A stretch of DNA of 64,000 bases from Nitratireductor indicus C115 (lineage in GTDB: Bacteria > Pseudomonadota > Alphaproteobacteria > Rhizobiales > Rhizobiaceae): contig NZ_AMSI01000008.1 in assembly GCF_000300515.1 (NCBI RefSeq), positions 124,001 to 188,000 on the forward strand. Reading direction: 5' to 3'. Below are positions 34,061-40,543 of the stretch, in pieces (the first letter of the stretch is position 1; every line of letters begins with the position of its first letter). The notes under the pieces were generated by a model. The model had not been told where the DNA came from. It saw nothing but the letters and a program-made list of their open reading frames with translations, and searched no databases. The translations under genes and the position numbers were made by a program.

Positions 34061-34990
34061 ATGGAATATTTCGTCCAGCAGCTTATCAACGGGCTGACGC
34101 TGGGTTCCATCTACGGGCTGATCGCCATCGGCTATACGATGGTCTACGGCATCATCGGAATGATCAACTTCGCCCATGGCGACATCTTCATGATCGGTTC
34201 TTTCATCGCGCTGGCGGTGTTTCTGATCCTGACGACGGTCCTGGGCTTCACATTCCTGCCCGTGGTCCTGCTCATCGTCCTGATCATATCGATGTTCTTC
34301 ACGGCGGCCTGGGGCTGGACCGTGGAGCGCCTGGCCTACCGGCCCCTGCGCGGCTCATTCCGTCTGGCGCCGCTCATCACTGCAATCGGCATGTCGATCG
34401 TGCTGCAAAACTTTGTCCAGATCACGCAGGGCGCGCGCGTCAAGCCGCTGCCGCCGCAGATTCAGGGCGGCGTCACGCTGATGGAAGGCTCCACGGAAGC
34501 CGGCACCATCGTCGTTCAGATGTCCTACATGCAGATGATCATCATCCTGAGCACCATCGTGCTGATGGTCGGCTTCACCATGCTGATCTCGCGTACGCCG
34601 CTCGGCCGGGCACAGCGCGCCTGCGAACAGGACCGCAAAATGGCGGCGCTGCTCGGCATCAATGTCGACCGTACCATCTCGCTGACCTTCGTCATGGGGG
34701 CGGCGCTTGCCTCGGTGGCTGGTCTGATGTTCCTGCTGCTTTACGGTGTGATCGACTTCTACATCGGCTTTCTGGCAGGCGTTAAGGCCTTTACCGCGGC
34801 CGTTCTGGGCGGCATCGGTTCTCTGCCGGGCGCCATGCTCGGCGGGCTGTTGATCGGCCTGATCGAAGTGTTCTGGTCCGGATACTTCTCCGTGGAATAC
34901 AAGGACGTTGCGGCCTTCTCGATCCTGGCCATCGTGCTCATATTCCTGCCCTCCGGCCTGCTTGGCCAACCGGAAGTGGAGAAGGTCTGA
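34061..34990 (+). CDS. livH: Branched-chain amino-acid ABC transporter permease LivH
   Basis: The 309-residue membrane protein starts with the family hallmark MEYFVQQLINGLTLGSIYGL and continues GYTMVYGIIGMINFAHGDIF, with about eight hydrophobic segments. The coupling segment ACEQDRKMAALLGINVDRTI contacts the ATPases. It forms the inner-membrane channel with LivM for leucine, isoleucine or valine uptake. I chose the ATG at 34061; an ATG at 34028 adds only a polar leader. Its stop overlaps the livM start (TGATG). Confidence 0.93.
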   Translation: MEYFVQQLINGLTLGSIYGLIAIGYTMVYGIIGMINFAHGDIFMIGSFIALAVFLILTTVLGFTFLPVVLLIVLIISMFFTAAWGWTVERLAYRPLRGSFRLAPLITAIGMSIVLQNFVQITQGARVKPLPPQIQGGVTLMEGSTEAGTIVVQMSYMQMIIILSTIVLMVGFTMLISRTPLGRAQRACEQDRKMAALLGINVDRTISLTFVMGAALASVAGLMFLLLYGVIDFYIGFLAGVKAFTAAVLGGIGSLPGAMLGGLLIGLIEVFWSGYFSVEYKDVAAFSILAIVLIFLPSGLLGQPEVEKV

Positions 34991-36429
34991 TGGCTGCCTC
35001 TAACACCAACGCACCCACCTCCGACGTGACGCCCGTTGGGGCCCAGGCCGAAGCGGAGGCTCATCGTCTGCCGCCAGCGCCTGCCAACAATCCGCACTCT
35101 CTTGCCGCCTCGGTCAGAGACGCGGCGATCGCGGCCTTCCTGGCCGGCGTGCTGGGATTCTTCTTCATCGGCGTGCGCACCGACATCGCGCCGGGCGGTC
35201 TCGATCTCAGAATGCGCTGGGGCGCGTGGATCGTTTCGATCCTCGTCGTCTTCGCCGGCCGCCTTCTGCTCAATATCTTCGTCTGGAAGACCGACAAGCC
35301 GATTACGCGGCGGGTGAAGACCGGCAGCGGCGGCATGTCCGAGACGGTGAGCAAGACGCTGAAATATGCGCTCCTGGCCTTCGCTCTCATCCTGCCTTTT
35401 TTCTTCACCACCTTCTTCCCCGGCAAGGACCGGCAATTCATCGACCTCGCTATCCTGATCATGACCTACATCATGCTGGGTTGGGGCCTGAACATCGTTG
35501 TGGGGCTCGCGGGCCTGCTCGATCTCGGCTACGTCGCCTTCTATGCGGTGGGAGCCTATTCGTTCGCGCTTCTTGCCCAGTATCTGGATTTCGGCTTCTG
35601 GCTGGCGCTGCCGCTGGCGGGCCTGCTTGCCGCGACCTGGGGCATGATCCTCGGTTTTCCGGTGCTGCGCCTGCGCGGTGATTATCTCGCCATCGTGACG
35701 CTTGCCTTCGGTGAGATCATCCGTGTGGTGCTGTTGAACTGGTATGAGTTCACGAAAGGACCGGATGGCATTTCGGGCATTCCCAAGCCGACATTCTTCG
35801 GTCTCGAACTGAAGCGGGGCGAGGGCGGGTTCGCCGATTTCTTCGGCATCGCCTATGATCCCATCCATCGCTTCATCTTTCTCTATTACATCATCCTTGC
35901 CCTTGCGCTGATCACCAATCTGGTGACGATGCGCCTGCGCCGCCTGCCTATCGGGCGTGCCTGGGAGGCTCTGCGCGAGGATGAGATCGCCTGCCGCTCG
36001 CTCGGCATCAACACGCGCAACACCAAGCTCACGGCCTTTGCCATCGGCGCGATGTTCGGCGGGTTCGCCGGCTCGTTCTTCGCCACGCGGCAGGGGTTCA
36101 TCTCGCCCGAGAGCTTCACCTTCCTGGAGTCGGCGATCATCCTGGCTATCGTGGTTCTGGGCGGTCTTGGCTCGCAGATCGGCGTTGTGATCGCCTCCGT
36201 CGTCATGATCGGCGGCATCGAGCTTCTGCGTAATCTCGGCTTCCTCCAGCAGGTGTTCGGTTCCGGCTTCGATCCGGTGCAATACCGCATGCTCATTTTC
36301 GGCCTCGCCATGGTTCTCATCATGGTTTGGAAGCCGCGCGGCCTGGTTTCGACGCGTGAGCCTTCCGCCGTCTACAAGGAGAAGAAGCGTATTGGCGCCG
36401 ATATGGTGGCTCAGGGTGAGGGACACTGA
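34990..36429 (+). CDS. livM: Branched-chain amino-acid ABC transporter permease LivM
   Basis: The 479-residue membrane protein has the LivM core from about residue 150 (LGWGLNIVVGLAGLLDLGYV, AVGAYSFALL, VLRLRGDYLAIVTLAFGEI) and the coupling loop WEALREDEIACRSLGIN. The first ~140 residues form an N-terminal extension with two to three hydrophobic segments and an Ala/Pro-rich start, as in the long LivM subtype. It pairs with LivH. Start and stop overlap both neighbours by one base (TGATG), indicating tightly coupled translation. Confidence 0.93.
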   Translation: MAASNTNAPTSDVTPVGAQAEAEAHRLPPAPANNPHSLAASVRDAAIAAFLAGVLGFFFIGVRTDIAPGGLDLRMRWGAWIVSILVVFAGRLLLNIFVWKTDKPITRRVKTGSGGMSETVSKTLKYALLAFALILPFFFTTFFPGKDRQFIDLAILIMTYIMLGWGLNIVVGLAGLLDLGYVAFYAVGAYSFALLAQYLDFGFWLALPLAGLLAATWGMILGFPVLRLRGDYLAIVTLAFGEIIRVVLLNWYEFTKGPDGISGIPKPTFFGLELKRGEGGFADFFGIAYDPIHRFIFLYYIILALALITNLVTMRLRRLPIGRAWEALREDEIACRSLGINTRNTKLTAFAIGAMFGGFAGSFFATRQGFISPESFTFLESAIILAIVVLGGLGSQIGVVIASVVMIGGIELLRNLGFLQQVFGSGFDPVQYRMLIFGLAMVLIMVWKPRGLVSTREPSAVYKEKKRIGADMVAQGEGH

Positions 36430-38198
36430 TGAACGCCGAAACAACCATGAAAACCATCGATCAAACGGCGCCGAACTGGGAGCGCGATCCCGTTCTCAGC
36501 GTCCAGCATCTCACCATGCGCTTTGGCGGCCTCGTGGCTGTCGGGGACCTCTCCTTTGAGGTGGGGCGCGGCGACATCACGGCCCTGATCGGGCCGAACG
36601 GCGCCGGCAAGACGACCGTCTTCAACTGCGTGACCGGTTTCTACAAACCGACCGAGGGGCGTGTCGTCATGCGCCATGGTCCGGGCCGGCAAGATGAAGC
36701 CGTGGACGAGGTGACAGCCAGCGGGCTGCGCTGGAAGTCCTCGGACAAGGGCGCGGTGTTCCTGCTTGAGCGCATGCCCGATCATGAAATATCGCATAAG
36801 GCCAAGGTGGCCCGCACCTTCCAGAACATTCGCCTTTTCGGCGGTATGACGGTGCTCGAAAACCTTCTGGTGGCGCAGCACAATCCGCTGATGGTGGCTT
36901 CCGGCTTTTCCATAGGCGGCATTCTCGGGCTTCCGAGCTATCGCAACGCACAGAAAGAGGCCATCGACAAGGCCATCTACTGGCTGGAGCGCACCAATCT
37001 GGTGGAACGCGCCGACGACCCGGCCGCAGACCTGCCTTACGGCGACCAGCGCCGGCTGGAAATTGCCCGCGCCATGTGCATCGGGCCGCAGCTTCTGTGT
37101 CTCGACGAGCCTGCCGCTGGTCTCAATCCACGCGAGTCGGCGGAGCTCAACGGGCTCCTGAAATACATCCGTGACGAGCACAATGTTTCCGTGCTTCTGA
37201 TCGAACACGACATGGGTGTGGTGATGGAGATTTCCGACCATGTCGTGGTTCTCGACTACGGGGTGAAAATTTCCGACGGTTCGGCGGATTTCGTGAAGTC
37301 GGATCCCAAGGTTATTGCCGCTTATCTCGGCGTTGACGAGGAATCCGAGATCGACATGCCGGAAGTCCTCGAAGACGTGGAGAAAGTGGTCGAAGAAGCC
37401 GATACGACCAAGGCCGGGAAGTCTTCCGCTTCCAGCAGGAAGCCTGCGGCCAAAGCCGGCTCGGGCAAGGCCTCCGGAAAGACACCGGCGGCGAAGAAGA
37501 CAAGTTCTCGCGGAGCGAAAGTGCCGGCGGCATCAAAAGCTGAGCCGGTGCCGCAAGGGCTGCTCGATACAGGCACGGCAAAGGCCAAACCGGCCGCCCG
37601 CAAGCCGGCATCCAGGGTGAGTGCGGCCAAGCCGACGGGAACTTCGGCAACCGCGACAACGGTGAAGCCCGCTGCCGCGAGCAAGGCCACTAAAAGTACG
37701 GCTGCTCAGATAAAAGCCGAGAAGCCCGCAAAGAGCGCTTCCGGAACCGCGCGGGCCAAACCGGCCGCCAAGGCAAAGGTGGCTGCGCCGGCTGCGAGCG
37801 AAATCAAGATTGCCGATGCCGGAAATTATCCCGGCCAGCAACCGCACGGCACGAAGAAGCCACGGGCGGGCGGGGCCAACAACCTGACGCGCGTCAAGGG
37901 TATCGGGCCGGCCAACGAGAAGAAGCTCAACGCTCTCGGCATCTGGCATTTCGACCAGATTGCCGCCTGGAAGAAGGCGGAGATCGAATGGGTCGGGGCC
38001 TATCTTTCCTTCCCGGGTCGTATCGACCGGGAGGAATGGGTGAAACAGGCGAAGGTCCTGGCAAAGGGTGGAGAGACCGAGTTCTCCAAGCGCGTGGATA
38101 GGGGCGATGTGCCCACCAGTGTTCCAGGCAAGCGCGGGGCGCAGCCCAAACCTTCGACCGGATCCAGGAAAGCCACCGGTAAGGGAGGCAAGGCATGA
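36429..38198 (+). CDS. livG: LivG ABC ATPase fused to an Ala/Lys-rich linker and a helix-hairpin-helix domain
   Basis: The 589-residue protein is about twice the usual LivG length. Residues 1-305 are a complete ATPase: Walker A GPNGAGKTT (55-63), ARTFQNIRLF, signature LPYGDQRR, Walker B LLCLDEPAAGLNP and IEHDMGVVM. Residues about 306-485 are a low-complexity Ala/Lys/Ser/Pro linker of repeated AAK/KPA units. Residues 486-545 (NNLTRVKGIGPANEKKLNAL, GIWHFDQIAAW, GRIDREEWVKQAK) are a helix-hairpin-helix of the kind I recall at the C-terminus of alphaproteobacterial NuoE and ribosomal L21. A basic tail follows. The frame is continuous, and livF overlaps its stop. Confidence 0.93.
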   Translation: MNAETTMKTIDQTAPNWERDPVLSVQHLTMRFGGLVAVGDLSFEVGRGDITALIGPNGAGKTTVFNCVTGFYKPTEGRVVMRHGPGRQDEAVDEVTASGLRWKSSDKGAVFLLERMPDHEISHKAKVARTFQNIRLFGGMTVLENLLVAQHNPLMVASGFSIGGILGLPSYRNAQKEAIDKAIYWLERTNLVERADDPAADLPYGDQRRLEIARAMCIGPQLLCLDEPAAGLNPRESAELNGLLKYIRDEHNVSVLLIEHDMGVVMEISDHVVVLDYGVKISDGSADFVKSDPKVIAAYLGVDEESEIDMPEVLEDVEKVVEEADTTKAGKSSASSRKPAAKAGSGKASGKTPAAKKTSSRGAKVPAASKAEPVPQGLLDTGTAKAKPAARKPASRVSAAKPTGTSATATTVKPAAASKATKSTAAQIKAEKPAKSASGTARAKPAAKAKVAAPAASEIKIADAGNYPGQQPHGTKKPRAGGANNLTRVKGIGPANEKKLNALGIWHFDQIAAWKKAEIEWVGAYLSFPGRIDREEWVKQAKVLAKGGETEFSKRVDRGDVPTSVPGKRGAQPKPSTGSRKATGKGGKA

Positions 38199-38929
38199 GC
38201 GGCGCGGCTGAACTATTGCTCGCCGTACGCGGCGTCGAAACCTATTACGGCAATATCGTTGCCCTGCGGGGCGTCGACATGGATGTGCATCGGGGTGAGA
38301 TCGTCACGCTGATCGGTGCCAATGGCGCTGGCAAGTCAACGCTGATGATGACCATTTGCGGTGATCCCCGCGCCCGCAAGGGGCGGATCGTCTACGACGG
38401 AATGGACATCACCCAGATGCCGACGCATGAGATCGTGAGCCACGGCATCGCTCAGTCGCCAGAAGGCCGCCGTATTTTCCCGCGCATGACGGTGATGGAA
38501 AATCTGCAGATGGGCGCGGCGCTTGTCGATCCCGATCATTTCGACAAGGATATCGAAAAGGTCTTCAAGCTGTTTCCGCGCCTTAAGGAGCGCATCGCCC
38601 AGCGTGGTGGTACGCTTTCAGGCGGTGAGCAGCAGATGCTGGCAATCGCGCGTGCGCTGATGAGCCGGCCGAAACTCCTGCTGCTTGACGAGCCTTCGCT
38701 TGGGCTTGCACCGCTTATCGTCAAACAGATTTTCGATGCCATTCGCGAACTGAACGAGAAAGAGGGGCTGACCGTGTTCCTCGTCGAACAGAACGCCTTT
38801 CACGCCCTGAAACTTGCTCACCGGGGCTATGTCATGGTCAACGGCGTCATCACCATGAGCGGCACCGGCGCTGAACTCCTCAAGAAGGAGGAAGTGCGGG
38901 CGGCCTACCTCGAAGGCGGGAGGCACTGA
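38195..38929 (+). CDS. livF: Branched-chain amino-acid ABC transporter ATP-binding protein LivF
   Basis: The 244-residue ATPase is of normal length, with Walker A GANGAGKST, signature LSGGEQQMLAIARAL, Walker B LLLLDEPSLGLAP and switch His replaced by the LivF-typical VEQNAFHALKLA. It pairs with the enlarged LivG to power LivHM. Its start overlaps the livG stop by four bases (ATGA), and its own stop overlaps the next gene's start. No extension is present, so the linker and helix-hairpin-helix tail are confined to LivG. Confidence 0.94.
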   Translation: MSGAAELLLAVRGVETYYGNIVALRGVDMDVHRGEIVTLIGANGAGKSTLMMTICGDPRARKGRIVYDGMDITQMPTHEIVSHGIAQSPEGRRIFPRMTVMENLQMGAALVDPDHFDKDIEKVFKLFPRLKERIAQRGGTLSGGEQQMLAIARALMSRPKLLLLDEPSLGLAPLIVKQIFDAIRELNEKEGLTVFLVEQNAFHALKLAHRGYVMVNGVITMSGTGAELLKKEEVRAAYLEGGRH

Positions 38930-39285
38930 TGGAACATCAGAACACGCTCATCTGGGAAGTCACCTTCTGGGAGTTTTTCTTCGTCACGCTGCTCCTGGCG
39001 GGGGCGGCGGCATTTCTGACCGGACGGGCCATGGCCCGAACCTGGCAGGGCGACAAGCAGCTCGCCCTCTACATCGTGCTTCTGGCTGCGGCCACGCGTT
39101 TCATCCATTTCTCGCTGTTCAGCGGCACGCTGCTTTCGCTGCACTACTATATCGTCGATCTGATCGCGCTTCTGATTATCGCCTTCGTGGGAAAGCGCAT
39201 GACACGAGCCGGTCAGATGTCGACGCAATATAGTTTTGAATATAACCGGAGCGGCCCTCTAGGCTGGCAGCGGAAAGGCAAATGA
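38929..39285 (+). CDS. Small membrane protein of the liv operon (DUF6867-like)
   Basis: The 118-residue protein has three hydrophobic segments: FWEFFFVTLLLAGAAAFLTG, LALYIVLLAAATRFIHFSLF and YYIVDLIALLIIAFVG. A polar tail follows (MSTQYSFEYNRSGPLGWQRK). I recall small proteins of this type (DUF6867) following livF in Rhizobiales liv operons; function is unknown. It starts on the last base of livF, so it is co-translated and is probably an accessory subunit or regulator of the transporter. The binding-protein gene comes 157 bases later. Confidence 0.8.
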   Translation: MEHQNTLIWEVTFWEFFFVTLLLAGAAAFLTGRAMARTWQGDKQLALYIVLLAAATRFIHFSLFSGTLLSLHYYIVDLIALLIIAFVGKRMTRAGQMSTQYSFEYNRSGPLGWQRKGK

Positions 39286-39442
39286 GATTCATGATTAACC
39301 GGTGTGAAGCCTTTATTTCTCTTTGGAATTGAGCTTTCATGCCAGTTAGGCGGGCCCAAGAGCCCGCATGGGCCAAACCGGAAAACCGAACACCATTTCC
39401 GGAGAGCCAAGGGAACTTCTGGTGTTTTTTGAGGGAGAAGTC

Positions 39443-40543
39443 ATGAAAAAGGCACTTATGGCTGGCGCAGCACTCAGCCTGATGATGACCGGTTCCGCAT
39501 GGGCGGACATCACGATTGCCGTTGCCGGTCCCATGACGGGCCAGTATGCGTCTTTCGGTGAGCAGATGAAGGCCGGCGCCGAGCAGGCCGTCGCCGACAT
39601 CAACGAGGCCGGTGGCGTGAACGGCGAAATGCTGAAGCTGGAAGTGGGCGATGATGCCTGCGATCCCAAGCAGGCCGTTGCGGTTGCCAACCAGTTCGCC
39701 GGTTCGGGCGTCGTCTTCGTGGCGGGCCATTTCTGTTCGGGGTCCTCTATCCCGGCTTCCGCCGTCTATGCCGAGGAAGGCATCATCCAGATATCGCCGG
39801 CCTCGACCAATCCGGCCTTCACCGACGATCGTCCGGGTCCGGGCATCTTCCGCGTTTGCGGCCGCGATGACCAGCAGGGCGATGTGGCAGGCAAGTTCCT
39901 TGTCGAGAAATTCCCCGACAAGAAGGTCGCCTTCATCCACGACAAGACCGCCTACGGCAAGGGTCTCGCCGATGCGACCATGGCTGCCTATGAGGCTGCG
40001 GGCGGCAAGCCGGCCATGTATGAAGCCTATACCGCAGGCGAAAAGGACTACAGCGCGCTCGTCTCCAAGCTGAAGCAGGAAGGCGTCGGCGTTCTCTATG
40101 TGGGCGGTTATCACACGGAAGCCGGCCTCATGGCCCGCCAGATGCGTGAGCAAGGCATGGATACGGTGCTCGTCTCGGGTGACGCCCTCGTCACCGACGA
40201 GTATTGGGCCATCACCGGCGATGCCGGTCAGGGCACGCTGATGACCTTCTCGCCCGATCCGCGCAAGAACGAGATCGCCAAGCCGGTGGTCGACAAGCTT
40301 CTTGCTGCCGGTAAGACGGCCGAAGGCTATGCGCTCTACACCTATGCCGCCATCCAGGCTTGGAAAACCGCTGTCGAGACCGCAAAGACCACCGATTACG
40401 ATCCGGTGGTGAAGGCGCTCGACGATGGCGAGTTCGACACCGTGCTTGGCAAGCTCTCCTTCGACGACAAGGGTGATGTGACGCTGCCCGGCTATGTCTT
40501 CTACGAGTGGAAAGACGGCAAGTACGACTATCTCGAGCAGTAG
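39443..40543 (+). CDS. livJ: Branched-chain amino-acid ABC transporter, periplasmic binding protein
   Basis: The 366-residue protein has a clear signal peptide (MKKALMAGAALSLMMTGSAW, cleaved near AWA|DIT), followed by the type I periplasmic-binding fold: ITIAVAGPMTGQYASFGEQM, VNGEMLKLEVGDDACDPKQA and AGHFCSGSSIPASAVYAEEG. It delivers Leu/Ile/Val, or a related amino acid, to LivHMGF. The ATG at 39443 has GAGGGAG at proper spacing. It closes the operon and is followed by a strong terminator. Two Cys (in DDACDP and GHFCSG) may form the family's disulfide. Confidence 0.94.
   Translation: MKKALMAGAALSLMMTGSAWADITIAVAGPMTGQYASFGEQMKAGAEQAVADINEAGGVNGEMLKLEVGDDACDPKQAVAVANQFAGSGVVFVAGHFCSGSSIPASAVYAEEGIIQISPASTNPAFTDDRPGPGIFRVCGRDDQQGDVAGKFLVEKFPDKKVAFIHDKTAYGKGLADATMAAYEAAGGKPAMYEAYTAGEKDYSALVSKLKQEGVGVLYVGGYHTEAGLMARQMREQGMDTVLVSGDALVTDEYWAITGDAGQGTLMTFSPDPRKNEIAKPVVDKLLAAGKTAEGYALYTYAAIQAWKTAVETAKTTDYDPVVKALDDGEFDTVLGKLSFDDKGDVTLPGYVFYEWKDGKYDYLEQ

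Follow-up and report, generated by a model that had tools for sequence, protein, structure and literature searches.

A helix-hairpin-helix module fused to LivG

The DNA analysed here is a stretch of 64,000 nucleotides (the window) from Nitratireductor indicus C115 (contig NZ_AMSI01000008.1, positions 124,001 to 188,000), which has a genome of 4.99 Mb. It contains a liv operon for an ATP-binding cassette (ABC) importer, in the order livH, livM, livG, livF, DUF6867 membrane protein and substrate-binding protein. The product of livG is unusually long, and consists of a LivG ATPase joined through a linker to a C-terminal helix-hairpin-helix (HHH) module. The gene and its parts, in window coordinates, are:

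36429-38198, + strand, livG fusion, 589 amino acids, single open frame
36429..37337, + strand, LivG ATPase, residues 1-303 (Pfam ABC_tran and BCA_ABC_TP_C; AlphaFold2)
37338..37796, + strand, Ala/Lys/Pro-rich linker, residues 304-456, predicted disordered (charge, AlphaFold2, variable length)
37797..37877, + strand, conserved lead-in YPGxQPHGTKKPR, residues 457-483 (alignment)
37878..38099, + strand, HHH module, residues 484-557, hairpins around KGIGP and FPGRIDR
38100..38195, + strand, basic C-terminal tail, residues 558-589 (sequence)
38183..38188, + strand, GGGAGG, probable livF Shine-Dalgarno sequence within livG (read directly)

Two Pfam families scored above their cut-offs, ABC_tran (PF00005) at residues 40-229 and BCA_ABC_TP_C (PF12399) at residues 280-304, and the protein is thus an ABC ATPase with the branched-chain amino acid (BCA) C-terminal motif encoded inside a liv operon, by which LivG was identified. 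The match to the NCBIfam LivG profile NF008449 (2.7e-95, 318.5 bits) was under the cut-off of 362 bits. The structure of the full-length protein was predicted with AlphaFold2 from an alignment of 20 fused LivG sequences. Over ten-residue blocks the predicted local distance difference test score was 62-96 for residues 11-300 and 64-93 for residues 461-570, while nearly all of residues 330-456 were below 50; the fusion is therefore predicted to be a confident ATPase, a disordered stretch and a folded module.

A preliminary description of the locus had recognized the order of these parts and the frame that joins them, both of which were borne out, and had given the low-complexity region as ∼180 residues; it is about 150 residues, followed by the conserved lead-in, which was 27 amino acids long in all 12 alignment rows read. 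Residues 310-484 have a charge of +21 and an isoelectric point (pI) of 10.4, and the tail has a pI of 10.3. By eye, the linker resembles AAKP-type, H1-like sequence, such as the histone-like regions of PhaM, PhaF and AlgP. The basic tail is also present as described, but part of it is accounted for by coding for livF, since the GKGGKA end also encodes the probable Shine-Dalgarno sequence and the ATGA overlap with livF.

The neighbouring genes are:

34061..34990, + strand, livH, presumed permease (open reading frame list; start inferred at MEYFVQQ)
34990..36429, + strand, livM, permease (PF02653, 3.5e-52)
38195..38929, + strand, livF, ATPase, 244 amino acids, no tail (ABC_tran, 1.8e-34)
38929..39285, + strand, DUF6867 membrane protein (PF21741, 4.2e-32)
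39368..40543, + strand, substrate-binding protein, which we take to be LivJ-like (open reading frame list)

The overlap between livM and livG is one base (TGATG, read directly), and that between the livG stop and the livF start is four (ATGA). LivF lacks such a tail, as had been noted. The DUF6867 gene adjoins the 3' end of livF with an overlap of one base. Two other, weaker LivG-like ATPases were found in the genome (150 of 304 candidates scored), and their frames, of 285 and 267 amino acids, are too short to have room for such a tail. PADLOC gave no match, so a known defence protein was not indicated.

Conservation and constraint of the fusion

Ten other genomes of the genus were searched for LivG with the module, and nine have it, with identities of 86-92%; no such match came from G006, an assembly of ∼270 contigs that is 90% complete. 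Among 79 named loci, a set that overlaps the genus genomes (several are evidently the same in both), all but one (L084) yielded a frame. These 78 comprised 19 LivG fusions, 12 NuoE proteins and 47 with neither reference host, one of which (L044) has a LivG-type tail at a contig end. In each of the 19 fused loci the gene is preceded by livM and followed by livF, which it overlaps through ATGA, and a GGAGG or close form stands 5' of that overlap. The recurrence of the same operon joint in many assemblies rules out a misassembly or sequencing join, against which the preliminary description had also argued. The overlap is not a mark of the fusion, as it was found in 16/38 fused and also in 42/74 plain LivG genes of the family.

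The ratio of non-synonymous to synonymous substitution (dN/dS) was calculated for the 45 pairs among 10 genus members, L042 and L118 having been excluded after reading. The module (0.058) and the ATPase (0.077) had the lowest values, followed by the lead-in (0.159) and the linker (0.31). Linker length varied from 88 to 178 amino acids over the 10 members, and it aligned poorly. The module is thus constrained like the ATPase and the linker is not; in the module the sequence is kept, and in the linker the character is kept more than the sequence.

Homology and fold of the module

A profile search of the module without its linker (37866-38195) against NCBIfam matched long NuoE (8e-32), ribosomal proteins L21 (2.2e-19 and 1.1e-15) and S2 (1.5e-14) and the Caulobacter phasin PhaH (5.5e-13), and each time it was the C-terminal part of the profile that aligned. 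The homology to NuoE and L21 that had been suggested was therefore confirmed, together with the module itself; its end had been placed at residue 545, and the similarity to NuoE (residues 2-80 of the query) extends beyond it. Against the whole long alphaproteobacterial NuoE (NF009040) the LivG tail scored 122.5 bits (cut-off 514) and aligned, linker included, to positions 164-398 of 400.

The module aligned to residues 170-233 of the 234 in the PhaH profile (NF045508), and PhaH, like LivG, bears it at the C-terminus; the one host is a polyhydroxybutyrate (PHB) granule protein and the other an ABC ATPase. Scores against this whole profile were 50.8 bits for the LivG tail and 51.3 for the N. indicus genome, against a cut-off of 250 bits, which was passed in none of 144 genomes of the class and in 1/14 control genomes (Caulobacter vibrioides). 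According to a review (PMC13052382), the HHH domain of PhaH binds DNA nonspecifically, and PHB granules are positioned on the nucleoid by it.

In the Protein Data Bank the best matches were protein-O of the Dinoroseobacter shibae reaction centre-light-harvesting 1 complex (8yy9, 3.6e-28) and a chain of 229 amino acids that is labelled a complex I subunit (9wqv, 1e-23); the rows that followed were DNA polymerase beta, at E values of 0.2 and up, and not significant. A 2025 paper (PMC12079452) describes protein-O as having a transmembrane part, from which a long flexible loop leads to a C-terminal domain resembling that of NuoE and others, and calls the functions of such domains obscure; the map shows residues 8-59 only. 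The module behind a long flexible loop is as in LivG, but protein-O is anchored by transmembrane helices and its module is invisible in the map.

The Pfam family HHH_5 (gathering score 27 bits) was not listed for the LivG tail, and was above cut-off in two other carriers (L307 and L239). Domains of this kind are also mentioned on PhaC proteins, as a COG3743 match on Halomonas PhaC2 (PMC8686332) and an HHH domain on Haloferax PhaC (PMC12028471). No report of an HHH module on LivG was found in searches of open-licence papers. The module is known in parts, from PhaH, NuoE, L21, S2 and protein-O, and LivG would be a new host class within what may be a general tag.

Other proteins carrying the module

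Four module matches were found in the N. indicus genome at an E value of 10 or better: LivG, three others which we take from their sequences to be NuoE and L21 and a 178 amino acid protein with a hydrophobic N-terminus, whose gene lies beside an OmpA-like gene. In the wider sample at least nine further types of protein carry the module, in most cases at the C-terminal end or close to it; the median number of residues after it was 1-12 in the larger groups, and up to 248 follow it in membrane-anchored proteins. The hosts were NuoE, L21, S2, S1, L19, the PHB depolymerase PhaZ, a two-ABC peptide-importer ATPase (PF08352), an AcrB-type resistance-nodulation-division (RND) pump in which it occurs twice, numerous proteins whose N-terminus is hydrophobic (protein-O being one kind) and five soluble 'phasin-like' proteins. 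Signature motifs and hydropathy served to identify the hosts, with 21 modules (20 loci) named by hand, so that the tallies describe this sample and are not a census; spans of <56 profile positions and identical copies had been removed from the module set. Examples are:

L292:295-2250, ribosomal protein S1 ending in the module
L232:1520-2212, ribosomal protein L19 ending in the module
L238:1802-3343, PhaZ ending in the module
L239:973-5205, AcrB-type RND pump with two module copies
L227, L228, L229 (genus); L272, L285, L268, L234: two-ABC peptide-importer ATPase (OppDF type) with module

The phasin-like proteins were assigned by eye, and three of the five had no Pfam family at E 0.001; HHH_5 alone was matched in L306 (sub-threshold) and in L307.

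In the genus the peptide-importer ATPase ends as NuoE does (VFGKKPR), and six of the seven peptide-importer modules fell among NuoE modules of the same family, although support was not firm and a single clade of the six tested was not rejected in an approximately unbiased (AU) test (p-AU 0.68). It is as if the module on this ATPase had been copied from NuoE. A module-bearing peptide-importer ATPase was not detected in the N. indicus genome at E 1e-100, with 150 of 222 candidates scored, which is not proof of absence.

The presence of L21, S2, L19 and S1 among the carriers would be expected if the module bound RNA, aiding mRNA or rRNA contact on ribosomal proteins and, on LivG, bringing ribosomes engaged in translation close to the importer. 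HhH folds are able to bind RNA. It is not evident why the carriers in membranes, respiration and granules should require RNA, and the PhaH report, as given in the review (PMC13052382), concerns DNA; contact with RNA is considered improbable.

Distribution and history of the LivG fusion

The preliminary description had called the presence of the module on an import ATPase unexpected; it is not peculiar to this LivG. The family set comprised 151 genomes, of which 113 had one close LivG orthologue each (E 1e-65), and the module was found on 38/113; a further orthologue (L154) ends at a contig edge ahead of the module, and was left out of this count but scored as fused on the LivG tree (39/113). 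A fusion peculiar to one species is ruled out by these counts.

The module itself, on any protein, was present in 135/151 family genomes (E 1e-5). Seven of the 16 genomes without it are about 2.0 Mb or smaller, and a 1.5 Mb genome (G061) retains one module. Across the class it was found in 13/144 genomes, the N. indicus genome included (profile, E 1e-6), with a scattered distribution. A phylum sample gave matches in 33/150 genomes, two of them outside the class and weak (2.7e-8 and 8e-7).

At least 15 changes of state were required on the LivG tree, four of them forced by well-supported branches, compared with an average of 32 for shuffled labels; such counts cannot separate gain from loss. 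On the module tree, 49 of 50 LivG modules fell in one group with a single membrane-anchored copy (support 82, not firm). This copy (L273:2220-2918) comes from a genome (G165) that also has a fused LivG. In AU tests covering 97/261 modules, neither a clade of the 49 LivG modules (p-AU 0.83) nor one of all 50 (p-AU 0.54) was rejected. The module trees were built on ∼80 columns, have few firm forks, and a short search missed better trees. The LivG modules stood apart from NuoE modules of the family, although support was again not firm, and recent copying from the bacterium's own NuoE tail is not favoured. The LivG module of L053, from a Rhodobiaceae metagenome-assembled genome, does not join the others in the larger tree, and a second fusion event may account for it.

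The sister LivG proteins L158 (plain) and L169 (fused) have a common tail start and the same KPKKGGE end, the module between them being the difference, and the plain proteins L211, L215, L218 and L222 retain a motif that is found in the linkers of their fused relatives, L193 and L224 among them. From these patterns we read the patchy distribution as mainly the outcome of a single old fusion that was afterwards lost many times. Less probably, an older linker acquired the module repeatedly, or tails passed from one LivG to another.

The number of state changes, the sister tails with and without the module and the position of the peptide-importer modules would also be consistent with a passenger domain, added C-terminally with little or no benefit, copied from gene to gene by duplication and readily lost. 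Such a passenger would not be expected to show a dN/dS as low as that of the ATPase core, and if the 49 LivG modules are a single clade the fusion would be old and long retained; this was thought the least probable of the explanations.

A putative tether to the nucleoid

Given the homology of the LivG module to the HHH domain of PhaH, which is reported to bind DNA, and the strongly basic linker, the tail may be a portable tether, here holding a membrane importer to DNA. A probability of about 0.45 is given to this reading. The disordered basic linker would hold the compact HHH domain away from the LivG ATPase, and this domain, on the cytoplasmic side of the inner membrane, would bind DNA without sequence preference, as is reported for that of PhaH. 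The LivFGHM importer would be loosely tied to the nucleoid, altering its position or the evenness of its placement rather than transport. We infer that the LivG copy binds DNA and so holds the importer, with whatever benefit this may bring. Two arginines in the predicted second hairpin, R531 (Arg in 97% of 261 modules) and R534 (95%), may contact phosphate. PhaM and PhaF also position granules on the nucleoid, through DNA-binding, histone-like C-termini rather than an HHH module, according to the same review (PMC13052382).

Several observations weigh against a tether to DNA. The only carrier for which reported DNA binding was found is PhaH, and on the LivG, NuoE and ribosomal copies it is putative. 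On other hosts the module frequently has a net negative charge (medians of -3 on S2, -2 on L21 and -1 on NuoE), as do the 80 residues before the module on S2 (-9), S1 (-7), the RND pump (-5.5) and the phasin-like proteins (-3); the acidic S2 linkers are unlike that of LivG. Statistics for linkers across the family were set aside, with 17/38 fused LivG tails outside the pattern. Its absence from 74/113 family LivG proteins makes the module dispensable in many lineages. Foldseek returned nothing at E 0.001 or better. Fold comparison, which addressed a tandem (HhH)2 or SAM-like fold, gave Z scores that were all <8, which by the tool's own guidance may reflect a mere common arrangement; RadA and NusA AR2 scored alike, and the latter structure was determined in complex with a protein, SuhB. 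The position of E497 is mostly Glu (87% of the 261 modules). Textbook HhH hairpins have a small residue at the equivalent position.

An alternative is a docking tag, in which the module binds a shared protein partner, or itself, and clusters complex I, importers, ribosomes and granules or recruits a common factor. The acidic modules on other hosts and the protein-binding relatives of the fold, which include weak SAM-domain rows beside NusA AR2, keep this explanation viable. It would also suit five polar residues (E497, Q510, R531, R534 and Q540) that are conserved in 87-97% of the 261 modules regardless of linker charge, and the adjacency of NuoE to membrane-anchored carriers in Rhodobacteraceae loci and D. 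shibae. We know of no partner for the module. The DNA binding described for PhaH in the review (PMC13052382) also speaks against docking, which is regarded as less likely than the tether.

The binding of nucleic acid, raised in the preliminary description, thus remains the leading idea, because the module matches the PhaH domain. The accompanying proposal of a link between amino acid uptake and translation or respiration was not supported; a general tether or docking tag better fits a module found on many unrelated proteins. More tentatively than for LivG itself, one portable and mostly C-terminal tether might hold importers, complex I, reaction centres, ribosomes and granules to the nucleoid, or to each other, across many alphaproteobacteria. 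If such a general positioning system exists, the chromosome would serve as an anchor for a membrane importer. The tag itself is shared, since the same domain ends complex I, several ribosomal proteins, a reaction-centre subunit and a granule enzyme as well as this import ATPase. The sharing of the tag reduces the obscure function of these domains to one question, that of a common chromosome tether or a common partner.

Additional observations

Six plain LivG proteins (L211, L215, L218, L222, L223 and L178) have a conserved, mostly acidic tail of 70-100 amino acids (SMxAGxVSDTI ... GASKA), and this tail also precedes the module in fused relatives. In L177, from a genome of 1.9 Mb (G089) without the module at E 1e-5, LivG runs in frame into what by sight is a LivF-like ATPase. 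A lone frame of 81 amino acids (L243:1296-1493, genome G003) contains the second half of a module (KAERDWFDKQLKFRGRVERDDWVKQA) and is perhaps a decaying copy.
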